Shown here one piece after another: positions 52,883-64,000 of a stretch of DNA of 64,000 bases (position 1 is its first letter; the number at the start of each line of letters is the position of its first letter). The stretch is from positions 310,001 through 374,000 of the forward strand of contig NZ_CADIKI010000001.1 of the NCBI RefSeq assembly GCF_902859935.1. Reading direction: 5' to 3'. This DNA comes from Paraburkholderia fynbosensis. GTDB lineage: Bacteria; Pseudomonadota; Gammaproteobacteria; Burkholderiales; Burkholderiaceae. The notes beneath the pieces are model-generated. The model was given only the letters and a program-made list of their open reading frames with translations. It made no database searches and was not told the origin of the DNA. A program made the translations under genes and the position numbers.

Positions 52883-54466
52883 TCAAAACGACGCGCCCTC
52901 ACCCGCCTCGGTGCCGGCCTGATCGCGGCCGTATGGATCGTCGAAGCGCACGATGTCGTCCTCGCCGAGATAGCCGCCCGATTGCACCTCGATCATTTCG
53001 AGCGATGTCTTACCCGGATTTTCGAGCTGGTGCGCGACGCCGGGCGGGATATAGGTCGACTGATTTTCCGAGAGCAGGAAGCGTTCCTCGCCGCGCGTGA
53101 CGAACGCCGTGCCACGCACGACGATCCAGTGTTCGGCGCGATGATGATGCATCTGCAACGAAAGGCGCCCTCCCGGTTTGACGACGATGCGCTTCACCTG
53201 AAAGCGTTCGCCGCGGTCGAGCGAATCAGAAAAGCCCCACGGCCGCCCGGCCTTGCGATGCTCCTGCGCTTCGCCGCTGCGCTCCGCCTTCAGCCTGCCG
53301 ACGATCGCCTTGACGTCCTGCACGCGATCCTTCGCGGCGACCAGCACCGCGTCGGCGGTTTCGACCACCACCACGCCGCTCACGCCGACACACGCGACGA
53401 GGCGCCCTTCCGAATGCGCGAAGCTGTCGGTCGAGCCGTCGAACATCACGCGGCCGCGTGCGACGTTGCCCGCGCCATCCTTGGCCGACGCGTCCCACAC
53501 CGAGTCCCACGCACCCACGTCCGACCATCCCGCCACCAGCGGCACCGTGACGCCGACGAACCGCGCATCGGTGGCGACGCGCTCCATCACCGCGTAGTCG
53601 ATCGAATCGCACGGACACGCGGCGAACGCGTCGCGCCCGAGATGCAGGGCACCGTCGTCGTCGACGCTGGCCTGCTGGAAAGCGTCCGCGCACGCCGCCG
53701 CGATCACGGGCGCACACAGCTCGACAGCCGCCAGCCACACCGACGCACGCACCACGAACATGCCGCTGTTCCACCAGTACTCGCCGGAGGCGACATAACG
53801 TTCGGCGAGTTCTTCGCCATCGGGCTTCTCGACGAAGCGTTCGATCGCGCGCGCGCCGTGCGTGCCGAGCGCCATACCCGTGCGGATATAGCCGTACCCG
53901 GTTGCCGCGTGCCGCGGCGGCACGCCGAGCGTGACGATCGCACCGCGCGCCGCGTGCGCGAGCGCTTCGGCGAGCGCCACGCCGAACGCGGCGTGATCGG
54001 CGATCAGATGGTCCGCGGGCAGCGCAACGATGATCGGATCATCGCCAGCCGCCGCCGCGCGCGCGGCGAGCGCGGCGACGGTCAGCGCGGGCGCGGTATC
54101 ACGCGGCACCGGCTCGAGCACCATGCGCACCCGCTGGCCGCAGTGTTCGAGGCGCTCGCGCGTTTGCTGGTGCAACGCCTCGCAGCAGAGCACCAGCGGC
54201 GTGGCCGTCGCGAGCGCGGCGACGGACGATATGTCGTGCGCGGCCACCACGAACGCCTCGTCGAGGCGGCGCAGCGTGGCTTCGAGCAGCGATTCGTCGC
54301 CGATCAGATCGATCAGCTGCTTGGGATTGCGCTCGCGCGACAACGGCCAAAGCCGCGTGCCGGGCCCGCCTGCGAGAATCGCCGGCTGCACGGAAAAGCG
54401 CGCCGTTGTTTCGGAGACGCCCACGCGCGGAGCGAATGAATTGCCTGGTACTACGATACGATTCAT
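52883..54466 (-). CDS. manC: Mannose-1-phosphate guanylyltransferase/mannose-6-phosphate isomerase
   Basis: This bifunctional enzyme makes GDP-mannose and interconverts mannose-6-P and fructose-6-P. The 527-residue protein has the nucleotidyltransferase motif ILAGGPGTRLWPLSRERNPKQ (30-50), FVEKPDGEE, and a C-terminal type II isomerase cupin (GGRLSLQMHHHRAEHWIVV). It is the BceA/XanB class used in exopolysaccharide synthesis. The N-terminal 25 residues are longer than usual. Expression partners are not adjacent on this strand. Confidence 0.94.
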   Translation of the reverse strand: MNRIVVPGNSFAPRVGVSETTARFSVQPAILAGGPGTRLWPLSRERNPKQLIDLIGDESLLEATLRRLDEAFVVAAHDISSVAALATATPLVLCCEALHQQTRERLEHCGQRVRMVLEPVPRDTAPALTVAALAARAAAAGDDPIIVALPADHLIADHAAFGVALAEALAHAARGAIVTLGVPPRHAATGYGYIRTGMALGTHGARAIERFVEKPDGEELAERYVASGEYWWNSGMFVVRASVWLAAVELCAPVIAAACADAFQQASVDDDGALHLGRDAFAACPCDSIDYAVMERVATDARFVGVTVPLVAGWSDVGAWDSVWDASAKDGAGNVARGRVMFDGSTDSFAHSEGRLVACVGVSGVVVVETADAVLVAAKDRVQDVKAIVGRLKAERSGEAQEHRKAGRPWGFSDSLDRGERFQVKRIVVKPGGRLSLQMHHHRAEHWIVVRGTAFVTRGEERFLLSENQSTYIPPGVAHQLENPGKTSLEMIEVQSGGYLGEDDIVRFDDPYGRDQAGTEAGEGASF

Positions 54467-54521: not shown

Positions 54522-55055
54522 TTACAGTAGCTCGAATGTATCGACGAGTGATTCACCGTCACGTGCACGGCGCCGCGCGCCAAAGCGCGGCTGACTGCTG
54601 CGAACCTGGCGCGTGAGACCGATGAACGGCACACCATGTTCGAGAAACGGCCCTTCCGTCTTGCGAAAACCGAATTGCTCATAGAAGCCGCGCAGATTGA
54701 GCGGCGCACTCACGCGCGCGGCGTGTCCGGGCCAACGTTCGGCGATCGCTTCCAGCACACGGTCGAGCAGCAGCTCCGCGGTGCCGTCGCCGCGCCGCAG
54801 CGGACTCGTGAGCACCTTGTCGATGGTGATTTCCGGATCTTCCGCGTCGCCGGGTTGCACACGAGCGTAAGCGAGGATCGGCATCGGCCTTCCCATATCC
54901 TCCACCGCGAACACGTGCAGCGCATTTTCATCCCGACCGTCCGCATCGAGGCAGACATGCGATTGCTCGACGACGAACACCGCGCTACGCGCCCGCAGGA
55001 TCAGATACAACTCGCGGGCCGAAAGCTGATCGAACTCCAGCGTCTTCCAATTCAT
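54522..55055 (-). CDS. GNAT N-acetyltransferase (ElaA-like)
   Basis: The 177-residue protein starts MNWKTLEFDQLSARELYLIL, as in ElaA, and has the acetyl-CoA loop region LRRGDGTAELLLDRVLEAI (Gly-rich). The start at 55055 has GGGGAA upstream; a GTG at 55067 is an alternative. It is divergent from the carrier-protein operon across 285 bp. The C-terminal tail is Arg-rich and atypical. The substrate is unknown. Confidence 0.88.
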   Translation of the reverse strand: MNWKTLEFDQLSARELYLILRARSAVFVVEQSHVCLDADGRDENALHVFAVEDMGRPMPILAYARVQPGDAEDPEITIDKVLTSPLRRGDGTAELLLDRVLEAIAERWPGHAARVSAPLNLRGFYEQFGFRKTEGPFLEHGVPFIGLTRQVRSSQPRFGARRRARDGESLVDTFELL

Positions 55056-55339
55056 CACATTCCCCACCGGTCAGAAAGTTCAACGAGGGTGACGGTGTCC
55101 ACCACCTTCGACGGCCTGGCTCGACATGCCGGCTCGTTGTCATGTCCACACGGTACGTCCGCGAAACTCGTGTTTCCGTGCGCCATCGCACTGACGCTCC
55201 GCTTTCTCAATCCTTAAATATGTTCCGGAGCCCGGCAACGATCTCGGTCGGGCAGATAAACGCGGAAAGCGCACACGTCTCACGCGTTTTCCGTCTACAT
55301 CATTTCAGGACCGTTGGACCATCAAGGGGGCACCGCACC

Positions 55340-55591
55340 ATGAAGACTGCATTGCGACGCATCATTTCCGAATCCGCCCGTCTCGACGTGCCGGTCGACA
55401 GCCTCGCGGACGACGCCGATCTCTACGCCGCGGGCTTGTCGTCGCTGGCGACCGTGCATCTGATGCTGGCCATCGAAGATGAATTCGACGTCGAGATCCC
55501 GGACCGCCTGCTGACACGCCGGCTCTTCTCGAGCATCGATTCGATGGCCGCTGCGATCACCGAATTGCAGCAGGGCAAGGCCGCAGCATGA
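55340..55591 (+). CDS. Acyl carrier protein
   Basis: This 83-residue carrier protein has the phosphopantetheine motif in DLYAAGLSSLATVHLMLAIE, with Ser35 as the expected attachment site (GLSSL in place of GLDSL). The acidic helix II (EDEFDVEIPDRLL) is typical of ACPs. It is the first gene of the operon, overlapping the next by 4 bp (ATGA), and is the likely cognate carrier for the amino acid ligase encoded two genes downstream. GGGGG at 55326-55330 is a weak ribosome site. Confidence 0.93.
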   Translation: MKTALRRIISESARLDVPVDSLADDADLYAAGLSSLATVHLMLAIEDEFDVEIPDRLLTRRLFSSIDSMAAAITELQQGKAAA

Positions 55592-56859
55592 GCGCCCCAC
55601 AGCCGGATGCGGCCAGCGCCGCAACCCCAGCGCACGACAGCGCTGAAGCGGCCGTCACGTTGACGACGGTCGAAGCCGAGCCCGGCTGGCGCGCGGCCGC
55701 GCACCGCTGCGCTGCGATAGCCGCGCAGTTCGCCGATGCGGTCGACCGCGACGCCCGCTTTCCCAGCGAAGCATTCGACGCGCTCAAACGCGAACGTCTG
55801 CTGTCGGCGATGGTGCCGAGCGCGTGCGGCGGCGCGGGATTGTCGCTCGCGGACATCGGCGCGATCTGCGAGACGCTCGCGCAAGGCTGCGCGTCGACCG
55901 CCATGATCTATGCGATGCATCAGATCCAGGTCGCCTGCGTCGAGGCGCATGGTGGCGAATCGGCGTGGCATCGGCGCCTGCTCGCGCAACTGGTCGAGCA
56001 TCAATGGCTGCTGGCGTCGGCGACTTCCGAGGAAACCATCGGCGGCAACATGCGCACGAGCGCCTGCTCGGTCGAGCTCGACGGTCCGCGTTTGCGGATC
56101 GAAAAGCTCGCACCGACGATCTCCTACGGCGCGCACGCCGACGGCATTCTCGTCACCGCGCGCCGCACCGCGGAGTCGGCGGCCGCCGACCAGGTGCTGA
56201 TCGTCGCGTTGCGCGATGACACGCAACTCGAAAAGCGTGGCGGATGGGACGCGCTCGGCATGCGCGGGACCTGCAGCGAGGGCTTCCGGCTGGTCGCCAC
56301 GGGACTCGCCGAACAGATCCTCGCGACGCCGTTCGCCGAGATCGCCGACCAGACCATGCTGCCGGTCTCGCACACGCTGTGGGCCTCCGTCTGGACCGGC
56401 ATCGCGATCGACGCGGTGAATCGCGCAAAGGCGTTCTTCCGCGCTCAGGCGCGCGCGACGCCCGGCTCGATTCCGCCGGCGGGCGTGCGCCTTGCCGAAG
56501 CGGTCGGCCTGCTGCAGATGATGCAGGCGCGCCTGTCGGTCGCGCTGGAAGCGGCACGCGCTGCGCATCAGGCGCGGCACGACGGTCCGCAGGCCGATGC
56601 GCCGCTCGCCGCGCTGCTCGGCTTCGCGTCCGACATGAACACGTTGAAGACCAGCATCTCGACCACCGCGCTGCAAGTCGTCCAGCAAGTGCTGATGATC
56701 TGCGGCATGGCGGGCTACAAGAACGGCACGCCGTACAGCGTAGGACGCCATTTGCGCGACCTGCACTCCGCGCCGCTCATGATCAATAACGACCGCATTG
56801 CGCAAAACACCGCGAGCCTGTTGCTCGCGCAGCGTCCTGCCGCACCGGGGAAAGCCTGA
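55588..56859 (+). CDS. Acyl-CoA dehydrogenase-like flavoprotein
   Basis: This 423-residue member of the acyl-CoA dehydrogenase superfamily has the N-terminal helical domain, a central beta-domain (LLASATSEETIGGNMRTSA, GMRGTCSEGFRLVA) and a C-terminal helical domain ending GRHLRDLHSAPLMINNDRIA. The Glu usually seen near the end (YEGTSEI) is replaced by INNDRI, so the base may differ or be absent. Relatives oxidise aminoacyl groups on carrier proteins in some pathways, for example PltE-type. It follows the ACP with an ATGA overlap and precedes the ligase with no gap, so it probably acts on the loaded carrier. Confidence 0.9.
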   Translation: MSAPQPDAASAATPAHDSAEAAVTLTTVEAEPGWRAAAHRCAAIAAQFADAVDRDARFPSEAFDALKRERLLSAMVPSACGGAGLSLADIGAICETLAQGCASTAMIYAMHQIQVACVEAHGGESAWHRRLLAQLVEHQWLLASATSEETIGGNMRTSACSVELDGPRLRIEKLAPTISYGAHADGILVTARRTAESAAADQVLIVALRDDTQLEKRGGWDALGMRGTCSEGFRLVATGLAEQILATPFAEIADQTMLPVSHTLWASVWTGIAIDAVNRAKAFFRAQARATPGSIPPAGVRLAEAVGLLQMMQARLSVALEAARAAHQARHDGPQADAPLAALLGFASDMNTLKTSISTTALQVVQQVLMICGMAGYKNGTPYSVGRHLRDLHSAPLMINNDRIAQNTASLLLAQRPAAPGKA

Positions 56860-57930
56860 ATGAACACGATGACCGATACCGCCGCGGCCGCTGCTGCCGC
56901 CGGCACCGTTGCCGACGCGAACACCGCGCCGGACTTTCGCGACGAACTGCTGGCCGCGGGCCTGCTGATCGATACCGGTGAAAACGGCCTGTACGGCCGC
57001 AGCCAGATTTTCGAGGATGTGCTCGAGCGCCTGAACGTGGCGATCACGCGTCTGGGCGCGGACCAGCAATCGGAAGTGCTGCGCTTTCCACCGGCGATGC
57101 GCCGCACCGACTTCGAAGACAGCGAATACCTGAAGAGTTTCCCGAATCTCGCGGGCACGATCCATTCGTTCTGCGGCGACGACCTGGGTCACCGCCGCCT
57201 GCTGCGCGCGCTCGACGACGCGCTGACCGACAGCGACAGCGACGACGAGCGCAGCGACGCATGGATGGCGCAGCAAAAGCCCACGCGCGTGGTGCTGACG
57301 CCCGCCGCCTGCTATCCGATCTATCCGGTGATGGCGCGGCGCGGCGCACTGCCCGCTGAAGGCCGCACGGTCGACGTGCTGTCGTACTGCTTCCGCCACG
57401 AACCGTCGCTCGATCCGGGCCGCATGCAGATGTTCCGGCAGCGCGAATACGTGCGCCTCGGCAGCGCGGAACAGGTGATGGCGTTCCGGCAGATGTGGAT
57501 CGATCGCGGCTCGCTGCTGGTGGCATTGCTGCAATTGCCGGTCGAGATCGATCTCGCCAACGATCCCTTCTTCGGCCGCGGCGGCAAGATCGTCGCCGAC
57601 AGTCAGCGCGCCCAGGCGCTGAAGTTCGAACTGCTGATTCCCATCGCCGATCCGCGCGGCAAGACTGCCTGCCTGTCGTTCAACTATCACATGGAGCACT
57701 TCGGCGCGATTTGGAAGATCGTCTGCGCAGACGGTGCTGTAGCGCATACGGGCTGCGTCGGCTTCGGCATGGAACGCATCACACTTGCGCTGTTCCGTCA
57801 TCATGGCCTCGACGTGAACGGCTGGCCTGACGAGGTGCGCGCGCTGCTGTGGGGCGACACCGAAGCGCGCGTCGCGCAAGGCCTGCAGAGCTTGCAGGCG
57901 AGCGCGGCACACACCGGAGGTGGCGCATGA
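56860..57930 (+). CDS. Amino acid:[carrier protein] ligase (class II aaRS-like)
   Basis: This 356-residue homologue of the catalytic domain of atypical seryl-tRNA synthetases lacks a tRNA-binding domain. Class II motif 2 is FRHEPSLDPGRMQMFRQREY (178-197) and motif 3 is GCVGFGMERITLALF (298-312). Cys151, Glu196 and Cys299 sit where family zinc ligands are expected. Characterised relatives activate glycine or alanine with ATP and load it on the phosphopantetheine of a small carrier protein. The ACP gene of this operon is the obvious partner. The low-complexity N-terminus (about residues 7-24) is variable in the family. Confidence 0.93.
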   Translation: MNTMTDTAAAAAAAGTVADANTAPDFRDELLAAGLLIDTGENGLYGRSQIFEDVLERLNVAITRLGADQQSEVLRFPPAMRRTDFEDSEYLKSFPNLAGTIHSFCGDDLGHRRLLRALDDALTDSDSDDERSDAWMAQQKPTRVVLTPAACYPIYPVMARRGALPAEGRTVDVLSYCFRHEPSLDPGRMQMFRQREYVRLGSAEQVMAFRQMWIDRGSLLVALLQLPVEIDLANDPFFGRGGKIVADSQRAQALKFELLIPIADPRGKTACLSFNYHMEHFGAIWKIVCADGAVAHTGCVGFGMERITLALFRHHGLDVNGWPDEVRALLWGDTEARVAQGLQSLQASAAHTGGGA

Positions 57931-58994
57931 ACCCGTCTCTGACATCCACGCCAATGAGCCCGTCCAGCGCTTTGCCGATGCCCCGGCGCGTCGAGGTGTC
58001 TGCGCGTGACAGCGCCGCCGCGCCGGGATCCGGCATGCGCCTGCGCGAACACGTGCCGCACGCGCTGCATCAGGGCGAGCGCGTGTGGCAGGAGACCAAC
58101 TGCTACGTCGATCTGTGGATCGAACTGTTGCATGGCTTCGGGCTCGACCCGCGCGCGGCGTTCGCCTTTACCGTCACACAAGATTTCGAAGGCGACCAGT
58201 TCACGTTCTTCAAATTCCCGCTCGACGACATCGAGCGACTGTACGGCACCCAAGTGCAGGAACTGGCCATCTACGATTCGCTCGAAGCGCGCGTGCTCGC
58301 GCAGACCACGCGCGGCCATACGGTGCTGGTGGAGGTGGACGGCTATTACTTGCCGAACACGCGCGCCACGTCGTATCGCCGCGAGCATCCGAAGACCACG
58401 GTGGGCATCGACTTCATCGATCCCGCCGCGCGCCGCCTCGGCTATTTCCACAACACCGGCTATCACCTGCTCGACGGCGAGGACTACGACGGCGTGTTCC
58501 GCAAACTTCCGCAATTCGCACAGCAACCCGATCTGCTGTTTCCATATGTGGAATTCGCCAAACAGGCGCGGCCCGCGCTCGAAGGCGCCGCGCTCGCGGA
58601 AACGTCGGCGGAATTGCTGTGCGCGCATCTGCAGCGAAGGCCGCTCGTCAATCCGATTTCGTCGTGGCGTGCCGCGTTTCCCGCGCATCTCGACATGCTG
58701 CTCGAACGCGGCGAGGCGTTCTTCCATCCGTACTCGTTCAACCTGATGCGGCAGCTCGGCGCGAACTTCGAGTTTCTGTCGAAGTATCTGCTGTGGCTGT
58801 CCGCGCAAGGCTTCGACATGCCCGCGTCGATCCCGGCCGCGGCGCAGCGCATCGCGTCGGAGTCGATGGTGATGCAGTTCCGGCTCGTGCGAGCCATCGC
58901 GCGCAGACGGCGCGATGCGTGCGAAGACTGCTTCGACGTGCTCGAAAGCGCCTATGAAGCGACCTTGCCACCGCTCGCCGCGCTGGTGCGATGA
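57927..58994 (+). CDS. DUF1839 family protein
   Basis: The 355-residue protein matches DUF1839, which occurs next to amino acid:[carrier protein] ligase genes. Its core runs from ETNCYVDLWIELLHGFGLDP (residues near 53-72) through FPLDDIERLYG, VEVDGYYLPNT, and SSWRAAFPAHL. The start overlaps the ligase stop by 4 bp (ATGA), so coexpression is certain. No function has been shown to my knowledge; a carrier-protein-dependent transferase is a reasonable hypothesis. The first 35 residues are Ser/Pro-rich. Confidence 0.9.
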   Translation: MNPSLTSTPMSPSSALPMPRRVEVSARDSAAAPGSGMRLREHVPHALHQGERVWQETNCYVDLWIELLHGFGLDPRAAFAFTVTQDFEGDQFTFFKFPLDDIERLYGTQVQELAIYDSLEARVLAQTTRGHTVLVEVDGYYLPNTRATSYRREHPKTTVGIDFIDPAARRLGYFHNTGYHLLDGEDYDGVFRKLPQFAQQPDLLFPYVEFAKQARPALEGAALAETSAELLCAHLQRRPLVNPISSWRAAFPAHLDMLLERGEAFFHPYSFNLMRQLGANFEFLSKYLLWLSAQGFDMPASIPAAAQRIASESMVMQFRLVRAIARRRRDACEDCFDVLESAYEATLPPLAALVR

Positions 58995-59036
58995 CGCGCG
59001 CTTCTCGCGCCATATAGCGTTTTTTGGGGGTTCGCA

Positions 59037-61721
59037 GTGGATGTACTGACGCACGGTGCGGCGGCCGATGACGCTCGCGGCGATGGTTCGATTGCGCATG
59101 CTGTCGCAACCACCACCATCGCCGCCTCACTCGCTGAAGCCGCGCGGATCGCCCCAACCGAGGAGGCGCGCACATGCGTGGCCGCACCGGACGAGGCGGC
59201 GACGCCATCACTCTGGCCGCAGCGGCTCGACACCGGCTGGCAGTGTGTCAGCACGCCGGCGGGCGCATGCGGGTCGCCTGCGGCGCTGCCCGCGCATGGC
59301 TGGCTCGCTGCGCCGGTGCCTGGCACCGTCGCAAGCGCTCGGCGCGCCGCAGGTCTGCTGGACGCCGCTCACCCTCCGCCCCTCGCGTTCGACGACCACT
59401 GGTATCGCGTCACGCTCACCGGCATAGGCAAACGCCGCTTGCGGCTGCACGGCCTCGCCACGCTCGCCGAAGTCTGGCTCGACGATGTGCGGCGCCTCGA
59501 CTCCGATTCGATGTTCGTCGCACATGATCTGGACATCGAACTGAATGGCAGCGCGACACTGGCGCTGTGCTTTCGCGCACTGACAGCCGCATTGACGGCA
59601 AAACGCCCGCGCGCGCGCTGGCGGCCGCGCCTCGTTTCGCCGCCGACGCTGCGCAACGTGCGCACCACACTGCTCGGCCATATGCCGGGCTGGTGCCCGT
59701 CGATTCAGGCGGTCGGTCCATGGCGCCCAGTCGAACTGCTGGGCGACGCGCCGCATGCATTCGACACGGTCGACCTGGCTAGCCGCGTCGATGGCGATGA
59801 CGGCATTGTTTCGCTCACGCTACGTTTCGCGTATCCACACGATGTCGCGACTGACGGCGCGACGCTCAAATGCGGCGCAGCTATTTCGTCTTTGCAATGG
59901 CGTGACGCCTATACCTTGACCGGCGCCGTGCGCGTGCCGCACGCCGAGCGCTGGTGGCCCCACACGCACGGCGAGCCGACTTTATATCCTTTGACGTTGC
60001 AACTCGATGACGATCGCTCAAATTCTTACTCTCTAGGCTCGATCGGCTTTCGCAGCATCGACGTGCAACGCGGCGCCGACGGTATGGGCTTCGCCATCCA
60101 CGTGAACGGCGTGCCCGTGTTCTGCCGCGGCGCGTGCTGGACCAGCGCGGACCTCGTGACGCTCGCCGGCACCGAAGCGCAACTGCGTCACACGTTCGAA
60201 CTGGCTCGCGCGGCCGGCATGAATATGCTGCGCGTGAGCGGCACGATGGTGTACGAGTCCGACGCGTTCTATGCGCTCGCCGACGAATACGGCCTGCTCG
60301 TCTGGCAAGACTTCGCGCTGGCAAATTTCGACTACCCGAACGATGCGGCCTTCCGTGCGTCGATCGAACTGGAAGCCGCGCAGTTTCTGACCCGCACACG
60401 ACGCTTCGCAGCGCTCGCCGTACTGTGCGGTGGCAGCGAAGCCGACCAGCAGGCGGCCATGCTCGGCCTGCCGCCTTCGCTGCGCGCACAAGCCGTGTTC
60501 ACTGAACTGTTACCCGCGATCGCCGCGCGCGAACGGCCGGACGTGCCGTATGTCCCCAACTCGCCTACGGGCGGAACGTGGCCGTTCTCCACCGACAAAG
60601 GCGTGACGCACTACTACGGGGTAGGCGCCTATCAGCGGCCGCTCGACGACGCGCGCCGCGCGCAGGTGCGCTTTGCCGCCGAATGCCTCGCCTTCGCCAA
60701 CGTACCGGACGACGCGACCTTGCACGACGCGCTGGGCACGATCCATTCGCACGATCCGCGCTGGAAGGCCGCCGTGCCGCGCGACCCTGGCGCCGGTTGG
60801 GATTTCGACGACGTGCGCGACCACTACCTGCGCACGCTGTACGGCGTGGAGCCGGCGCAGTTGCGCTATGAAGACCCCGTGCGTTATCTGGATCTGTCGC
60901 GCGCGGTGGTCGCGGAGGTGATGAGCGACGTGTTCGCCGAATGGCGGCGCGCGGACTCGACCTGTGCCGGCGGTTTGGTCTGGCAATTGCAGGATCTGCG
61001 CGCGGGCGCAGGCTGGGGTGTGATCGACGCCACAGGACGGCCCAAAAGCGCGCTACACGGGCTCGCGCACACATTGCAACCCGTCCAGATCACGCTGACC
61101 GACGAAGGCCTCAACGGCCTCGATATCCACCTGATCAACGAACGCGCACAAACGTTTAGCGGACGACTCGAACTGGTCTGCCTGCGCGATGGCAGCGTGA
61201 AGGTCGTGTCCGCGAGTTGCCCCGTCGAGTTGCCGCCGCGCAGCGCGCAACGTGTCGGCGCGGCCGCATGCCTCGGCCAGTTCTTCGACTTTACGCATGC
61301 CTACCGATTCGGCCCGCGCGCGCATGATGTCACGCTGGCGACACTGCGCGAGGCGGCAAGCGAAGAAATCGTTTGCGAGGCGTTTCATCTGCCCGATCGG
61401 CGCATGAGCGAGCGTCACGACATCGGTCTGACTGCCCTCGTCCAGCGCCGTGGCGACGGCTGGCAGCTCGTCATCGAAACAAAACGCTTTGCACGCTTTG
61501 TTCATATCATCGACCCACACTATCGTGGCGCGCGCGACTGGTTCCATCTCGCTCCACATCGCCCCGTCATCGTGCCTCTGATTCCTCTGACGTCAGTGGC
61601 GTCGCAAGAACGAATCGTTGCCCACGCATCCAGCTCAATGGTTAACGCTGATGCAACATGCGCGACACCCGCGGGTGAAGTGCGCGCGATCAATGCGATA
61701 TCCGCCACCTTTTATCGCTAG
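59037..61721 (+). CDS. Glycoside hydrolase family 2 (beta-mannosidase-like) protein
   Basis: The 894-residue protein shows the GH2 order: an N-terminal sugar-binding beta-sandwich (from LDTGWQCVSTPAGA), an immunoglobulin-like domain, and a TIM barrel with VFCRGACWTSADL and YGLLVWQDFALANFDYPND. Candidate catalytic acids are Glu468 in VLCGGSEAD, at the family's usual Asn-Glu position but with Ser in place of Asn, and Glu549 in RFAAECLAFANVPD. No signal peptide is seen, so it is predicted cytoplasmic. It starts with GTG 42 bp after the DUF1839 gene, with a GGGGG ribosome site. The first 50 residues are variable. Activity on a mannoside is a family-level inference. Confidence 0.88.
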   Translation: MDVLTHGAAADDARGDGSIAHAVATTTIAASLAEAARIAPTEEARTCVAAPDEAATPSLWPQRLDTGWQCVSTPAGACGSPAALPAHGWLAAPVPGTVASARRAAGLLDAAHPPPLAFDDHWYRVTLTGIGKRRLRLHGLATLAEVWLDDVRRLDSDSMFVAHDLDIELNGSATLALCFRALTAALTAKRPRARWRPRLVSPPTLRNVRTTLLGHMPGWCPSIQAVGPWRPVELLGDAPHAFDTVDLASRVDGDDGIVSLTLRFAYPHDVATDGATLKCGAAISSLQWRDAYTLTGAVRVPHAERWWPHTHGEPTLYPLTLQLDDDRSNSYSLGSIGFRSIDVQRGADGMGFAIHVNGVPVFCRGACWTSADLVTLAGTEAQLRHTFELARAAGMNMLRVSGTMVYESDAFYALADEYGLLVWQDFALANFDYPNDAAFRASIELEAAQFLTRTRRFAALAVLCGGSEADQQAAMLGLPPSLRAQAVFTELLPAIAARERPDVPYVPNSPTGGTWPFSTDKGVTHYYGVGAYQRPLDDARRAQVRFAAECLAFANVPDDATLHDALGTIHSHDPRWKAAVPRDPGAGWDFDDVRDHYLRTLYGVEPAQLRYEDPVRYLDLSRAVVAEVMSDVFAEWRRADSTCAGGLVWQLQDLRAGAGWGVIDATGRPKSALHGLAHTLQPVQITLTDEGLNGLDIHLINERAQTFSGRLELVCLRDGSVKVVSASCPVELPPRSAQRVGAAACLGQFFDFTHAYRFGPRAHDVTLATLREAASEEIVCEAFHLPDRRMSERHDIGLTALVQRRGDGWQLVIETKRFARFVHIIDPHYRGARDWFHLAPHRPVIVPLIPLTSVASQERIVAHASSSMVNADATCATPAGEVRAINAISATFYR

Positions 61722-62350
61722 CTTGTCGCACTGATCTAGGTATCGCGCGCGAGCCGCATAAAACCTCACACTTCGCGAACCCATGTGTCTGCCTGAGGGA
61801 ATCACTGTTGGTTTTTTTGCGACTTCCGGGTCGTCGAATAGATACTCCGTGCGGCAACGTACGCAACGCATTGAACACATCTGAATCAATTCCGGCACAT
61901 CGCGGACATCGCATCGCAACGCCCATGGCAAGGCTATTTCGCCTCCGGGACACCCGCTGCGTGAACCCCGTTGACACGCGCCAGGCCAATACCATCAACG
62001 GCTCCGGTCGTTTGAAACAAGCCCGCGAAACGCGGACCTCGATGCGGCGCGTTGTACAGATTTGAAACAAAAAGTCACATCCGGCTTCGCACGCCGCTAC
62101 GGCTTGGTTCGCTGCGCCGCACCAGCGCTCGCTTTAGGTAGCGTTGGCACACTCCTCGCTAATAGCTGAGCGCAACGCAGCGTCACCGCAGCAGGGTCCA
62201 CAAAAACGGCGGCGGCGCACCAGGCCAATACGGGGCCGAGTCTGTCCATCCTTCACTGCTCGCGAGGCAGTTGTGATTTCTTCACGGATGCAGACATCGG
62301 ATCAAAAACAGAAAGCCGCCCTCAACGCGACTTTCACGCGAGGACCGATC
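61722..62350. other. Intergenic region after the carrier-protein operon
   Basis: This 629-bp gap has no convincing gene. A minus-strand frame at 61635-61931 contains several Cys pairs (MRCVRCRTEY) but overlaps the GH2 gene end and lacks a ribosome site. A weakly AT-rich stretch at 62030-62080 may contain a promoter for the Crp-family gene. No T-tract terminator was found. Confidence 0.4.
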
Positions 62351-63085
62351 ATGTTGACACTTCAATCCGATCTGCACGGTAACCACTTGCTTGGAGCATT
62401 GCCGTCGCACGAATGGCAAGCGCTAGCTCCCCATCTCGAACTGGTTCATCTGCGCACCGAACAGTTGCTGTGCGACTCGGGTCAACGCATTCATCACGTC
62501 TACTTCCCGACGACCGCGATCATCTCGATGCTCTCGACGATGGAAGACGGCAGCTCGGTCGAAATCGCCGCGGTCGGCCGCGAAGGCATGACCGGCGTGC
62601 CGGTGCTCACCGGCGGCGAAACCATGCCGAACCGTGTGCAGGTGCAATGCGCCGGCTTCGCATACCGGATGAGCGCACAGGCGCTCAAACAGCAATTCGC
62701 GCGCTCGGACTTCCTGCGCCGCCTGATGCTGCTGTATATGCACGCCCTGCTCACGCAAGTCGCGCAAACCGCTGCCTGCAATCGTCACCATGCGCTGAAC
62801 AAGCAGCTGTGCCGCTGGCTGCTGATCGAAGTGGACCGCGTCGCGTCGAATGATCTGACGGTAACCCAGCAACTGATCGCCGACATGCTCGGCGTGCGCC
62901 GCGAAGGCATTACCGAAGCCGCCGGCAAGCTGCACGATGAAGGCCTGATTCATCACAGCCGCGGCCACATCAAGGTGCTCGATCGCAAGGGCCTCGAAGC
63001 GCGTGCATGCGAATGCTACGGCCTCGTCAAACGCGAATTCGACCGTCTTCTGCCGCGTCTGCGCCAGGCCGAAACCGTCGAATAA
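62351..63085 (+). CDS. Crp/Fnr-family regulator
   Basis: The 244-residue protein from ATG 62351 has a cyclic-nucleotide-binding-like domain (ALPSHEWQALAPHLELVHLR, DGSSVEIAAVGREGMTGVPV) and a C-terminal winged helix (QQLIADMLGVRREGITEAAG). The AGGA site at 62341-62344 supports this start; ATG 62288 gives 21 more residues. No FNR-type Cys cluster is seen at the N-terminus. It lies 36 bp upstream of the exopolysaccharide glycosyltransferase and may control that cluster. Confidence 0.9.
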   Translation: MLTLQSDLHGNHLLGALPSHEWQALAPHLELVHLRTEQLLCDSGQRIHHVYFPTTAIISMLSTMEDGSSVEIAAVGREGMTGVPVLTGGETMPNRVQVQCAGFAYRMSAQALKQQFARSDFLRRLMLLYMHALLTQVAQTAACNRHHALNKQLCRWLLIEVDRVASNDLTVTQQLIADMLGVRREGITEAAGKLHDEGLIHHSRGHIKVLDRKGLEARACECYGLVKREFDRLLPRLRQAETVE

Positions 63086-63121: not shown

Positions 63122-64000
63122 ATGTTCAGGAATACTACGCGGGTTCTCGATGCGCTTTTCGTGATTGCCGGAAGCCTGCTCGGACATTGGCTGCGCTTCT
63201 CGACGCCGATCGCGTTGTCAGACACCGAGCGTCTTCTGATCGCGTTCAACTGTCTGCTCGTGTTGCTGTTGTTTCCGGGCTTCGGCGTGTATGAAACGTG
63301 GCGCGGCAAGGCGTTGGCGCCGGTGCTGGCGAGAATCACGGCGGCGTGGCTGGTGGTGTCCGTCACCGGCCTCGTGCTGGTGTTCACGCTGCATCGTATG
63401 GACGCGGTGTCGCGGCTGTGGTTCGGTTACTCGACGCTGATCTCCGGCGCGATGATCATCGCCACCCGCTGCATCACGCACGTCGTGCTGCGCAGCGTGC
63501 GGCGACGCGGGATGAATGTCCGCACCGTCGCGATCGTCGGCGCGCCAGGCTTCTCGCGTACGCTGCTCGCGCATCTCGAACATGCGCCGCAAGCCGGCTT
63601 CAAACCGGTGTGCGTCTTCGACACCAGCATCGAAGGCGCCGCCAACTATGGCACGCGCCTGAAGCGCCTGCCGGTGCTGACCGATCTCGATGCGTTCGTC
63701 AACAAGGTGCGCAACGAGCGCGTAAGCGAAGTGTGGCTTGCGCTGCCGCTTTCCGAAGAACATACGATCTATCGCTTCACGCATATCTTCAGACACGACT
63801 TCGTGAATCTGCGCTTCGTCCCCGATGTACGCAGCCTCTCGCTGTTCACCCACGCGCTGGTCGACGTCGTCGGGTTACCCACGCTCAATCTGAGCGCGAC
63901 GCCCTTCTCGCCGCCGCAGATGTGGCCCAAGCTGATGTTCGACCGTCTGTTCGCTGCGCTCGCGCTGCTCGTGCTCGCGCCGGTGTTCATCGTGCTCGCG
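63122..64000 (+). CDS. Undecaprenyl-phosphate glucose phosphotransferase, partial (BceB/WcaJ-like)
   Basis: The gene runs off the window, leaving 293 codons. It begins MFRNTTRVLDALFVIAGSLL with four predicted membrane segments, then a soluble Rossmann-like domain (VRTVAIVGAPGFSRTLLAHL), and the start of the C-terminal sugar-transferase domain (KLMFDRLFAALALLVLAPVF). The family transfers glucose-1-phosphate to undecaprenyl phosphate as the first step of exopolysaccharide repeat assembly. The next genes should belong to that cluster, beyond the edge. The catalytic motif is not visible in this part. Confidence 0.9.
   Translation, partial: MFRNTTRVLDALFVIAGSLLGHWLRFSTPIALSDTERLLIAFNCLLVLLLFPGFGVYETWRGKALAPVLARITAAWLVVSVTGLVLVFTLHRMDAVSRLWFGYSTLISGAMIIATRCITHVVLRSVRRRGMNVRTVAIVGAPGFSRTLLAHLEHAPQAGFKPVCVFDTSIEGAANYGTRLKRLPVLTDLDAFVNKVRNERVSEVWLALPLSEEHTIYRFTHIFRHDFVNLRFVPDVRSLSLFTHALVDVVGLPTLNLSATPFSPPQMWPKLMFDRLFAALALLVLAPVFIVLA

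Follow-up and report, generated by a model that had tools for sequence, protein, structure and literature searches.

We identified a conserved five-gene operon in 64,000 nucleotides of the Paraburkholderia fynbosensis genome (assembly GCF_902859935.1, contig NZ_CADIKI010000001.1, positions 310,001 to 374,000; hereafter the window). It encodes an acyl/aminoacyl carrier protein (ACP), a flavoprotein with the fold of acyl-CoA dehydrogenases (ACADs), an amino acid:[carrier protein] ligase resembling class II aminoacyl-tRNA synthetases (aaRSs), a protein of the DUF1839 family, and a GH2 enzyme. The operon is real and conserved, and DUF1839 and the ligase occur together more often than expected by chance. 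We propose that these proteins may load an amino acid onto the carrier, oxidise it there and transfer it to a sugar through an amide bond, with the GH2 enzyme acting on the resulting glycoside; the chances of this whole chain being correct seem to us just short of even.

Distribution of the operon and its parts

All five plus-strand open reading frames were re-found exactly where a preliminary description of this DNA had placed them. As described there, ATGA overlaps join ACP to flavoprotein and ligase to DUF1839, the flavoprotein and ligase genes abut with zero spacing, and 42 bp separate DUF1839 from GH2. The family assignments of all five genes were likewise upheld by Pfam and NCBIfam profile matches. 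Pfam bit scores were 41.6 for PP-binding (ACP), 48.7 for Acyl-CoA_dh_N, 441.6 for DUF1839 (PF08893, cut-off 22.5) and 30.9 for Glyco_hydro_2_N2. The ligase gave no match in the Pfam scan at E 0.001; in NCBIfam it is NF005479, amino acid--[acyl-carrier-protein] ligase (524.3 bits, cut-off 357), and the ACP is NF005480 (127 bits, cut-off 72).

Relatives were taken from the best 80 of 541 confirmed loci, ranked by likeness to the window DUF1839, and from a phylum sample of 299 genomes and a family sample of 200 genomes. The source genome holds a single DUF1839 copy, and its closest relative by this protein among the fetched loci is from Paraburkholderia sp. SG-MS1 (97% identity). All five genes are in place at 68 of the 80 related loci, L021 of Paraburkholderia xenovorans LB400 being one locus with the full set; eleven have lost, at the least, flavoprotein, ligase and an undamaged GH2, and one stops at a contig edge. 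In the phylum sample, DUF1839 is present in 12 genomes that span four family codes (f1, f31, f44, and f67), all of which carry the ligase and have a DUF1839 preceded by ACP, flavoprotein and ligase and followed by GH2. The ligase exceeds its cut-off in 21 genomes of this sample, nine of which have no DUF1839. Ligase loci were fetched from eight of these nine genomes, and at them the flavoprotein lies beside the ligase in every case, and DUF1839 and GH2 in none. In the family sample, DUF1839 occurs in 85 genomes, the ligase exceeds its cut-off in 83, and 78 have both. Of the seven genomes with DUF1839 but no over-cut-off ligase, one has a weak match at 114 bits; of the five with the ligase but no DUF1839, one has the ligase in two pieces.

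The preliminary description had staked the five-gene idea on conserved co-occurrence in related genomes, and the idea survived this comparison, with the same gene order recurring across relatives. However, the five genes are not a fixed unit, as the first three occur without DUF1839 and GH2 at 8 of the 19 phylum-sample ligase loci that were fetched, and DUF1839 outlasts the others at 11 of the 80 related loci. Because the loci without DUF1839 also lack GH2, the arrangement is best described as an ACP-flavoprotein-ligase core with a DUF1839-GH2 module that joins it. Some core-only loci have neighbours of their own. At three of them (L136, L137, and L138) the ACP gene is divergent from the flavoprotein-ligase pair; at L136 it is adjoined by genes of the nucleoside-phosphorylase and IF-2B families, and genes of like size are present at the other two. 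A class IV aminotransferase adjoins the ligase locus L142, and a Cys/Met-metabolism PLP enzyme and a homoserine O-succinyltransferase-like protein adjoin L143.

At seven of the eroded loci (L011, L039, L041, L044, L045, L070, and L071) the flavoprotein and ligase are gone or fragmentary and GH2 is in pieces, with DUF1839 intact, and at the remaining four (L074 to L077) DUF1839 stands without matched trace of the other genes. A search of ten of these eleven genomes showed no ligase in four (L039, L041, L070, and L071) and a ligase elsewhere in the other six.

The association of GH2 with the ligase was counted on 210 DUF1839 copies (198 unique) from the 80 loci, the 85 family-sample genomes and nine further phylum-sample genomes; these sources overlap and the copies are not independent. 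Of the 146 unique ligase-adjacent DUF1839 copies, 143 are followed by a full-length GH2 gene in the same orientation, compared with 0 of the 34 unpaired copies that are without an intact ligase. The three exceptions are a locus at a contig end (L060) and two that have lost GH2 (L154 and L163). This distribution ties GH2 to the ligase and speaks against a chance neighbour; that it is a dead enzyme is likewise unsupported, with both catalytic glutamates kept. The pattern of GH2 loss and erosion suggests that GH2 needs the ligase or the flavoprotein, and that DUF1839 can serve in another role as well. At L154 and L163 most or all of the flavoprotein was lost together with GH2, with the ACP, the ligase and two DUF1839 copies remaining, a hint that the two lost proteins act in one step or branch.

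Predicted activities of the encoded proteins

Three protein searches gave 3640, 5810 and 6354 matches, of which the best 120 each were listed, and structures were modelled from alignments of little depth (67 sequences with identities as low as 57%; 38 with identities as low as 72%). The Foldseek and VIA results are ranked matches, so that families outside these lists are not excluded by them.

The ligase belongs to the same family as Bll0957 and the ligases of PDB entries 3mey and 4h2w, which are presumably from Bradyrhizobium. It aligns over residues 20–331 with 4h2w (E 3.4e-83) and 3mey (E 2.1e-81), including C151, E196 and C299, which we take to be zinc ligands and which are invariant in 89 of 89 sequences. 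It has no tRNA-binding domain, as the preliminary description had noted: the 356-residue protein matches only residues 311–505 of a 527-residue type-2 SerRS. Open frames of 667–704 residues in three genomes resembled ligase-flavoprotein fusions; this reading was rejected, since the flavoprotein in these frames has a stop codon of its own ahead of the region matching the ligase. In the ACP, all 85 aligned sequences keep Ser35, the predicted phosphopantetheine site. The ACP has in addition a weak match to AmcB, the carrier protein of cispentacin biosynthesis (38.7 bits, cut-off 80). According to the accessible part of a 2022 review (PMC9437257), ligases of this family load Ala, Gly or Ser onto carrier proteins and their biological role is unknown. 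Literature searches for that role gave no pathway paper, although most subscription papers were outside their reach. In contrast to the eight fetched loci lacking DUF1839, the operon of the window ligase continues into DUF1839 and GH2.

The predicted structure of DUF1839 has the overall CcbD/CtaG-type fold and strongly matches the amide synthase CcbD, which backs the transfer step suggested earlier for this protein. Cys59 begins a helix (residues 59–70) and is present in 85 of 91 sequences; it is likened to C19 of CcbD or C11 of CtaG by numbering only. His154, His175 and Asp186, candidates for the remainder of a Cys-His-Glu/Asp triad as in CcbD/CtaG-type synthases, are invariant in all 91 sequences, and Thr157 is also conserved. 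R319, R322, R326 and R328 are mostly conserved and would form a candidate basic carrier-binding patch, placed by end-anchored numbering without superposition. DUF1839 was mentioned by one paper in the literature searched, which took in few subscription papers. A C-T/S-H triad has been proposed (PMC10318531), and CcbD is described, in the accessible part of PMC12945683, as using a ping-pong cysteine mechanism with an amino-sugar acceptor. DUF1839 is probably a carrier-protein-dependent acyltransferase.

The flavoprotein is predicted to have an ACAD/DszC-like fold (model pLDDT 75.8), and all 87 homologues share R390, D391, M398, I399 and N401. Its sequence matches include the nitrososynthase DnmZ and 3m9v/4kcf, which we take to be KijD3, and there are equally strong matches to dehydrogenases and to sulfur-compound monooxygenases. 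Fold scores likewise fail to separate N-oxygenases, dehydrogenases and monooxygenases. In the N-oxygenases ChmG and KijD3/DnmZ, as in the window flavoprotein, the ACAD fold is found without the catalytic glutamate; the likeness to KijD3/DnmZ is not exclusive. The accessible part of PMC10849742 describes ChmG as an ACAD-fold N-oxygenase of prolyl-ACP that has Met at the Glu position and resembles KijD3. ChmG works in a ChmG/ChmH pair, whereas the window operon contains no second ACAD.

The preliminary description had the loaded amino acid oxidised on the carrier by this protein. Oxidation on the carrier fits the evidence, but the protein probably differs from ordinary acyl-CoA dehydrogenases. 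With the catalytic glutamate missing, we rate N-oxygenation no less likely than dehydrogenation; it is our first choice for the carrier-bound amino acid, with clearly less than even confidence. The flavoprotein could instead dehydrogenate or oxidise the carrier-bound amino acid to an imine or dehydroamino acid, as do RedW/PigA or ColB1, leaving the rest of the scheme unchanged. ColB1 ties in fold, the best PDB sequence match is 7p98 (labelled short-chain acyl-CoA dehydrogenase and titled cyclohexene-carboxyl-CoA dehydrogenase), and the NCBIfam models for the prolyl-PCP dehydrogenases RedW and PigA also match, at 24.6 and 22.8 bits, far below their cut-offs of 650 and 500. However, Met398-Ile399 replaces the catalytic glutamate in 87 of 87 homologues, in a register set by the RD motif and the MCAD/IVD motifs that puts Ile399 at the glutamate position, and we consider the dehydrogenase unlikely, if still a serious contender. 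For DUF1839, a published classification suggests a papain-like hydrolase or amidase, which would remove acyl groups or cut cell-wall material; we find this improbable.

The solved structures nearest to the GH2 enzyme are GH2 beta-mannosidases. Both catalytic glutamates are invariant in 79 of 79 homologues, and Ser rather than Asn precedes the acid/base Glu (S467-E468) in 78 of 79. No clear signal peptide was found in 16 N-terminal regions by a crude hydropathy scan that reached upstream of the true starts (highest 14-residue means of 0.88–1.93). G402 is invariant, in a column not matched to the published GH2_14 glycine that replaces His/Trp. The window enzyme shares with GH2_14 the SE instead of NE motif, the lack of a visible signal peptide and the nearness to beta-mannosidases. 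In the accessible part of PMC12243196, GH2_14 is characterised by the SE motif and a signal peptide that is typically but not absolutely absent, and in the glucosaminidase subfamily of GH2 the Ser is tied to the C2 amine. Because of this link to the C2 amine, a hexosamine derivative would fit as the substrate. Unlike the window GH2, GH2_14 is given no carrier-protein context in that part of the paper.

DUF1839 copies with and without Cys59

Outside loci with paired copies, the ligase-adjacent members of the 198 unique DUF1839 copies all have Cys59 (130 of 130), compared with 9 of the 34 that lack an intact ligase. In one Burkholderiaceae genus (g4) and its neighbour (g173), the ligase-adjacent operon copies instead have Arg or Gln at position 59 (16 of 16), and each genome has a second, Cys-bearing copy. 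Fifteen of these second copies lie beyond the gene for the CRP-type regulator (and GH2 where present) on the opposite strand, and one is on another contig. At L153–L168 and L125/L124, the Cys-bearing second copy beyond the CRP gene usually adjoins ManC. Genus g3 shows the reverse, with Cys lost from the second, ligase-less copy. A Cys-bearing copy is found in 78 of 78 family-sample genomes with both DUF1839 and ligase and in nine of nine further phylum-sample genomes, and is absent from five of the seven family-sample genomes that have DUF1839 but no over-cut-off ligase.

The Cys-less copies are under purifying selection, with median dN/dS of 0.19 and 0.20 compared with 0.27 for Cys-bearing operon copies (pairs with pS 0.05–0.6 only). 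Their decay as pseudogenes is unsupported by these values, though one copy (L252) has a stop within the matched stretch; this copy and the operon copy of L155, which has such a stop too, were left out of the alignment and tree and retained in counts. The g4/g173 operon copies have Thr157 changed to Ser or Ala in 15 of 15 aligned, as expected if Thr157 works with Cys59, whereas it is kept in 24 of 25 other Cys-less copies. Three loci (L170, L190, and L191) have ACP, flavoprotein and DUF1839 without adjacent ligase or GH2. Position 59 is A, R and S, respectively, and the latter two have also changed His175 to Arg.

These copies raise the possibility that DUF1839 works as a pair of an active and a Cys-less subunit, the latter binding the carrier or the acceptor. 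Both kinds are present in 32 of 34 ligase-bearing family-sample genomes with at least two copies (the exceptions being G408, with two complete operons, and G427, which is rearranged), and besides the selection on the Cys-less copies, these retain His154, Asp138 and Arg322 in 40 of 40 aligned. However, the pattern comes from few lineages, and a single copy is found in the source genome and in 44 of the 78 ligase-bearing family-sample genomes. Pairing is thus not required, and we consider such a pair of subunits a rather unlikely explanation.

Proposed pathway and genomic surroundings

In the proposed pathway, a small amino acid would be attached to Ser35 of the ACP by the ligase and likely oxidised there by the flavoprotein, perhaps by N-oxygenation. 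From the carrier it would move to Cys59 of DUF1839, which would deliver it to an amine acceptor, probably on an amino sugar, and GH2 would probably act on the resulting glycoside. The earlier load-oxidise-transfer-GH2 scheme fits the evidence with two changes, that the flavoprotein is probably no ordinary acyl-CoA dehydrogenase and that the five genes do not form a fixed unit. Loading rests on knowledge of the ligase family and transfer on fold and distribution; we infer the amino acid, the oxidation chemistry, the acceptor, the GH2 substrate and a surface-glycan destination. The closest parallel is lincosamide synthetase, which also uses a carrier-bound amino acid and a CcbD-fold protein, with CcbD joining carrier-bound proline to an amino sugar. 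In these terms, ligase and ACP would correspond to LmbC and the LmbN carrier domain, and DUF1839 to LmbD/CcbD. LmbC/CcbC is an adenylation domain, however, whereas the loading enzyme here is aaRS-like, and DUF1839 has no detectable sequence similarity to CcbD. CtaG of the closthioamide pathway and AziU3/U2 of the azinomycin pathway, which forms an aziridine, act on other substrates, and no sequence similarity of DUF1839 to them was detected either.

Two results call for caution over this assignment of DUF1839. Searches of PDB chains with phmmer and hmmsearch list no CcbD/CtaG-type synthase for it. In addition, Cys59 changes only about five times on a tree of 100 copies (of 208 rows, after 90% clustering and removal of short operon rows), and an independent-pairs test is not significant; the pattern is therefore consistent but comes from few events.

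The product could also be a diffusible, signal- or antibiotic-like molecule, glycosylated and then released by GH2, instead of a decoration of a surface glycan. CcbD, CtaG and AziU3 all belong to antibiotic pathways, no signal peptide was seen on GH2, and ten neighbours scanned at five of the eight core-only loci include no glycan-assembly family. On the other hand, GumD-like, ManC, Wzx-like flippase, GT4, polysaccharide export or exosortase-type hydrolase genes are near most phylum-sample DUF1839 loci, in scans of selected neighbours whose counts carry no background rate. ManC and GumD-like genes flank the operon in the window and many relatives. L126 has a GT4 and a Wzx-hydrolase fusion nearby, L132 a Wzx-like protein and L130 a polysaccharide export protein. 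Two-domain hydrolases at L126, L128, L131 and L134 are akin to exosortase-A hydrolases 1 and 2, below the cut-offs of those models, and L135 has a similar two-hydrolase protein. The scanned neighbours at G107 and G191 include no glycan-assembly gene, and a literature search combining exosortase, carrier protein and exopolysaccharide found nothing, most subscription papers being outside its reach. Downstream in the source genome are the GumD-like gene and one glycosyltransferase-like frame, seen by eye without a family search of that stretch. A diffusible product appears doubtful on this evidence.

A fuller version of the surface-glycan pathway is unlikely to be right in every part. In it, DUF1839 would link an N-hydroxylated carrier-bound amino acid to a hexosamine, at its C2 amine, within the lipid-linked precursor of a surface glycan. 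The product would be edited in the cytosol by a GH2_14 enzyme with an SE pocket suited to such 2-N-acyl sugars, and DUF1839 would have split into catalytic and Cys-less partners in two genera. If true, this would be a dedicated bacterial route from an aaRS to a glycan, parallel to nonribosomal peptide synthetases and tRNA-dependent lipid aminoacylation. In the plainer form of the pathway, too, carrier-loading ligases with known chemistry but no known role would gain a testable purpose, their role becoming a matter of a short five-protein in vitro reconstitution, and DUF1839 and GH2_14 would receive a first physiological setting.

Positions of the operon and its neighbours in the window
Feature	Positions	Strand	Remarks
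ACP, acyl/aminoacyl carrier protein (83 aa)	55340..55591	+	Ser35 codon 55442-55444, predicted phosphopantetheine site
ACAD-fold flavoprotein (423 aa)	55588..56859	+	predicted aminoacyl-carrier oxidase or N-oxygenase
Amino acid:[carrier protein] ligase (356 aa)	56860..57930	+	class II aaRS-like; candidate zinc ligands C151, E196, C299
DUF1839 (355 aa)	57927..58994	+	predicted carrier-protein-dependent amide synthase; Cys59 at 58101-58103
GH2 enzyme, GH2_14 type (894 aa, GTG start)	59037..61721	+	Ser467-Glu468 acid/base motif; Glu549 at nucleophile position
GNAT-family acetyltransferase	54522..55067	-	divergent; common neighbour at Paraburkholderia and Caballeronia loci
ManC-type mannose-1-phosphate guanylyltransferase / mannose-6-phosphate isomerase	52883..54466	-	context gene
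CRP-type regulator	62309..63085	+	context gene; follows GH2 in many Burkholderiaceae loci
GumD-like gene	63122..64000	+	PF13727 match; extends past window end, 462 codons in genome

The last gene in the table is one that we take to be of GumD type from its likeness. Upstream of ACP, a conserved promoter or palindrome was sought in 83 aligned regions, where little is kept beyond the ribosome-binding site. Directly upstream of ACP, L126 (3881-5988) has a class II (D, K, N) synthetase-like gene together with a radical SAM gene whose product weakly matches lysine-2,3-aminomutase; L129 (12407-13483) has a radical SAM gene there as well. Perhaps these are simply EpmA and EpmB of elongation factor P modification.

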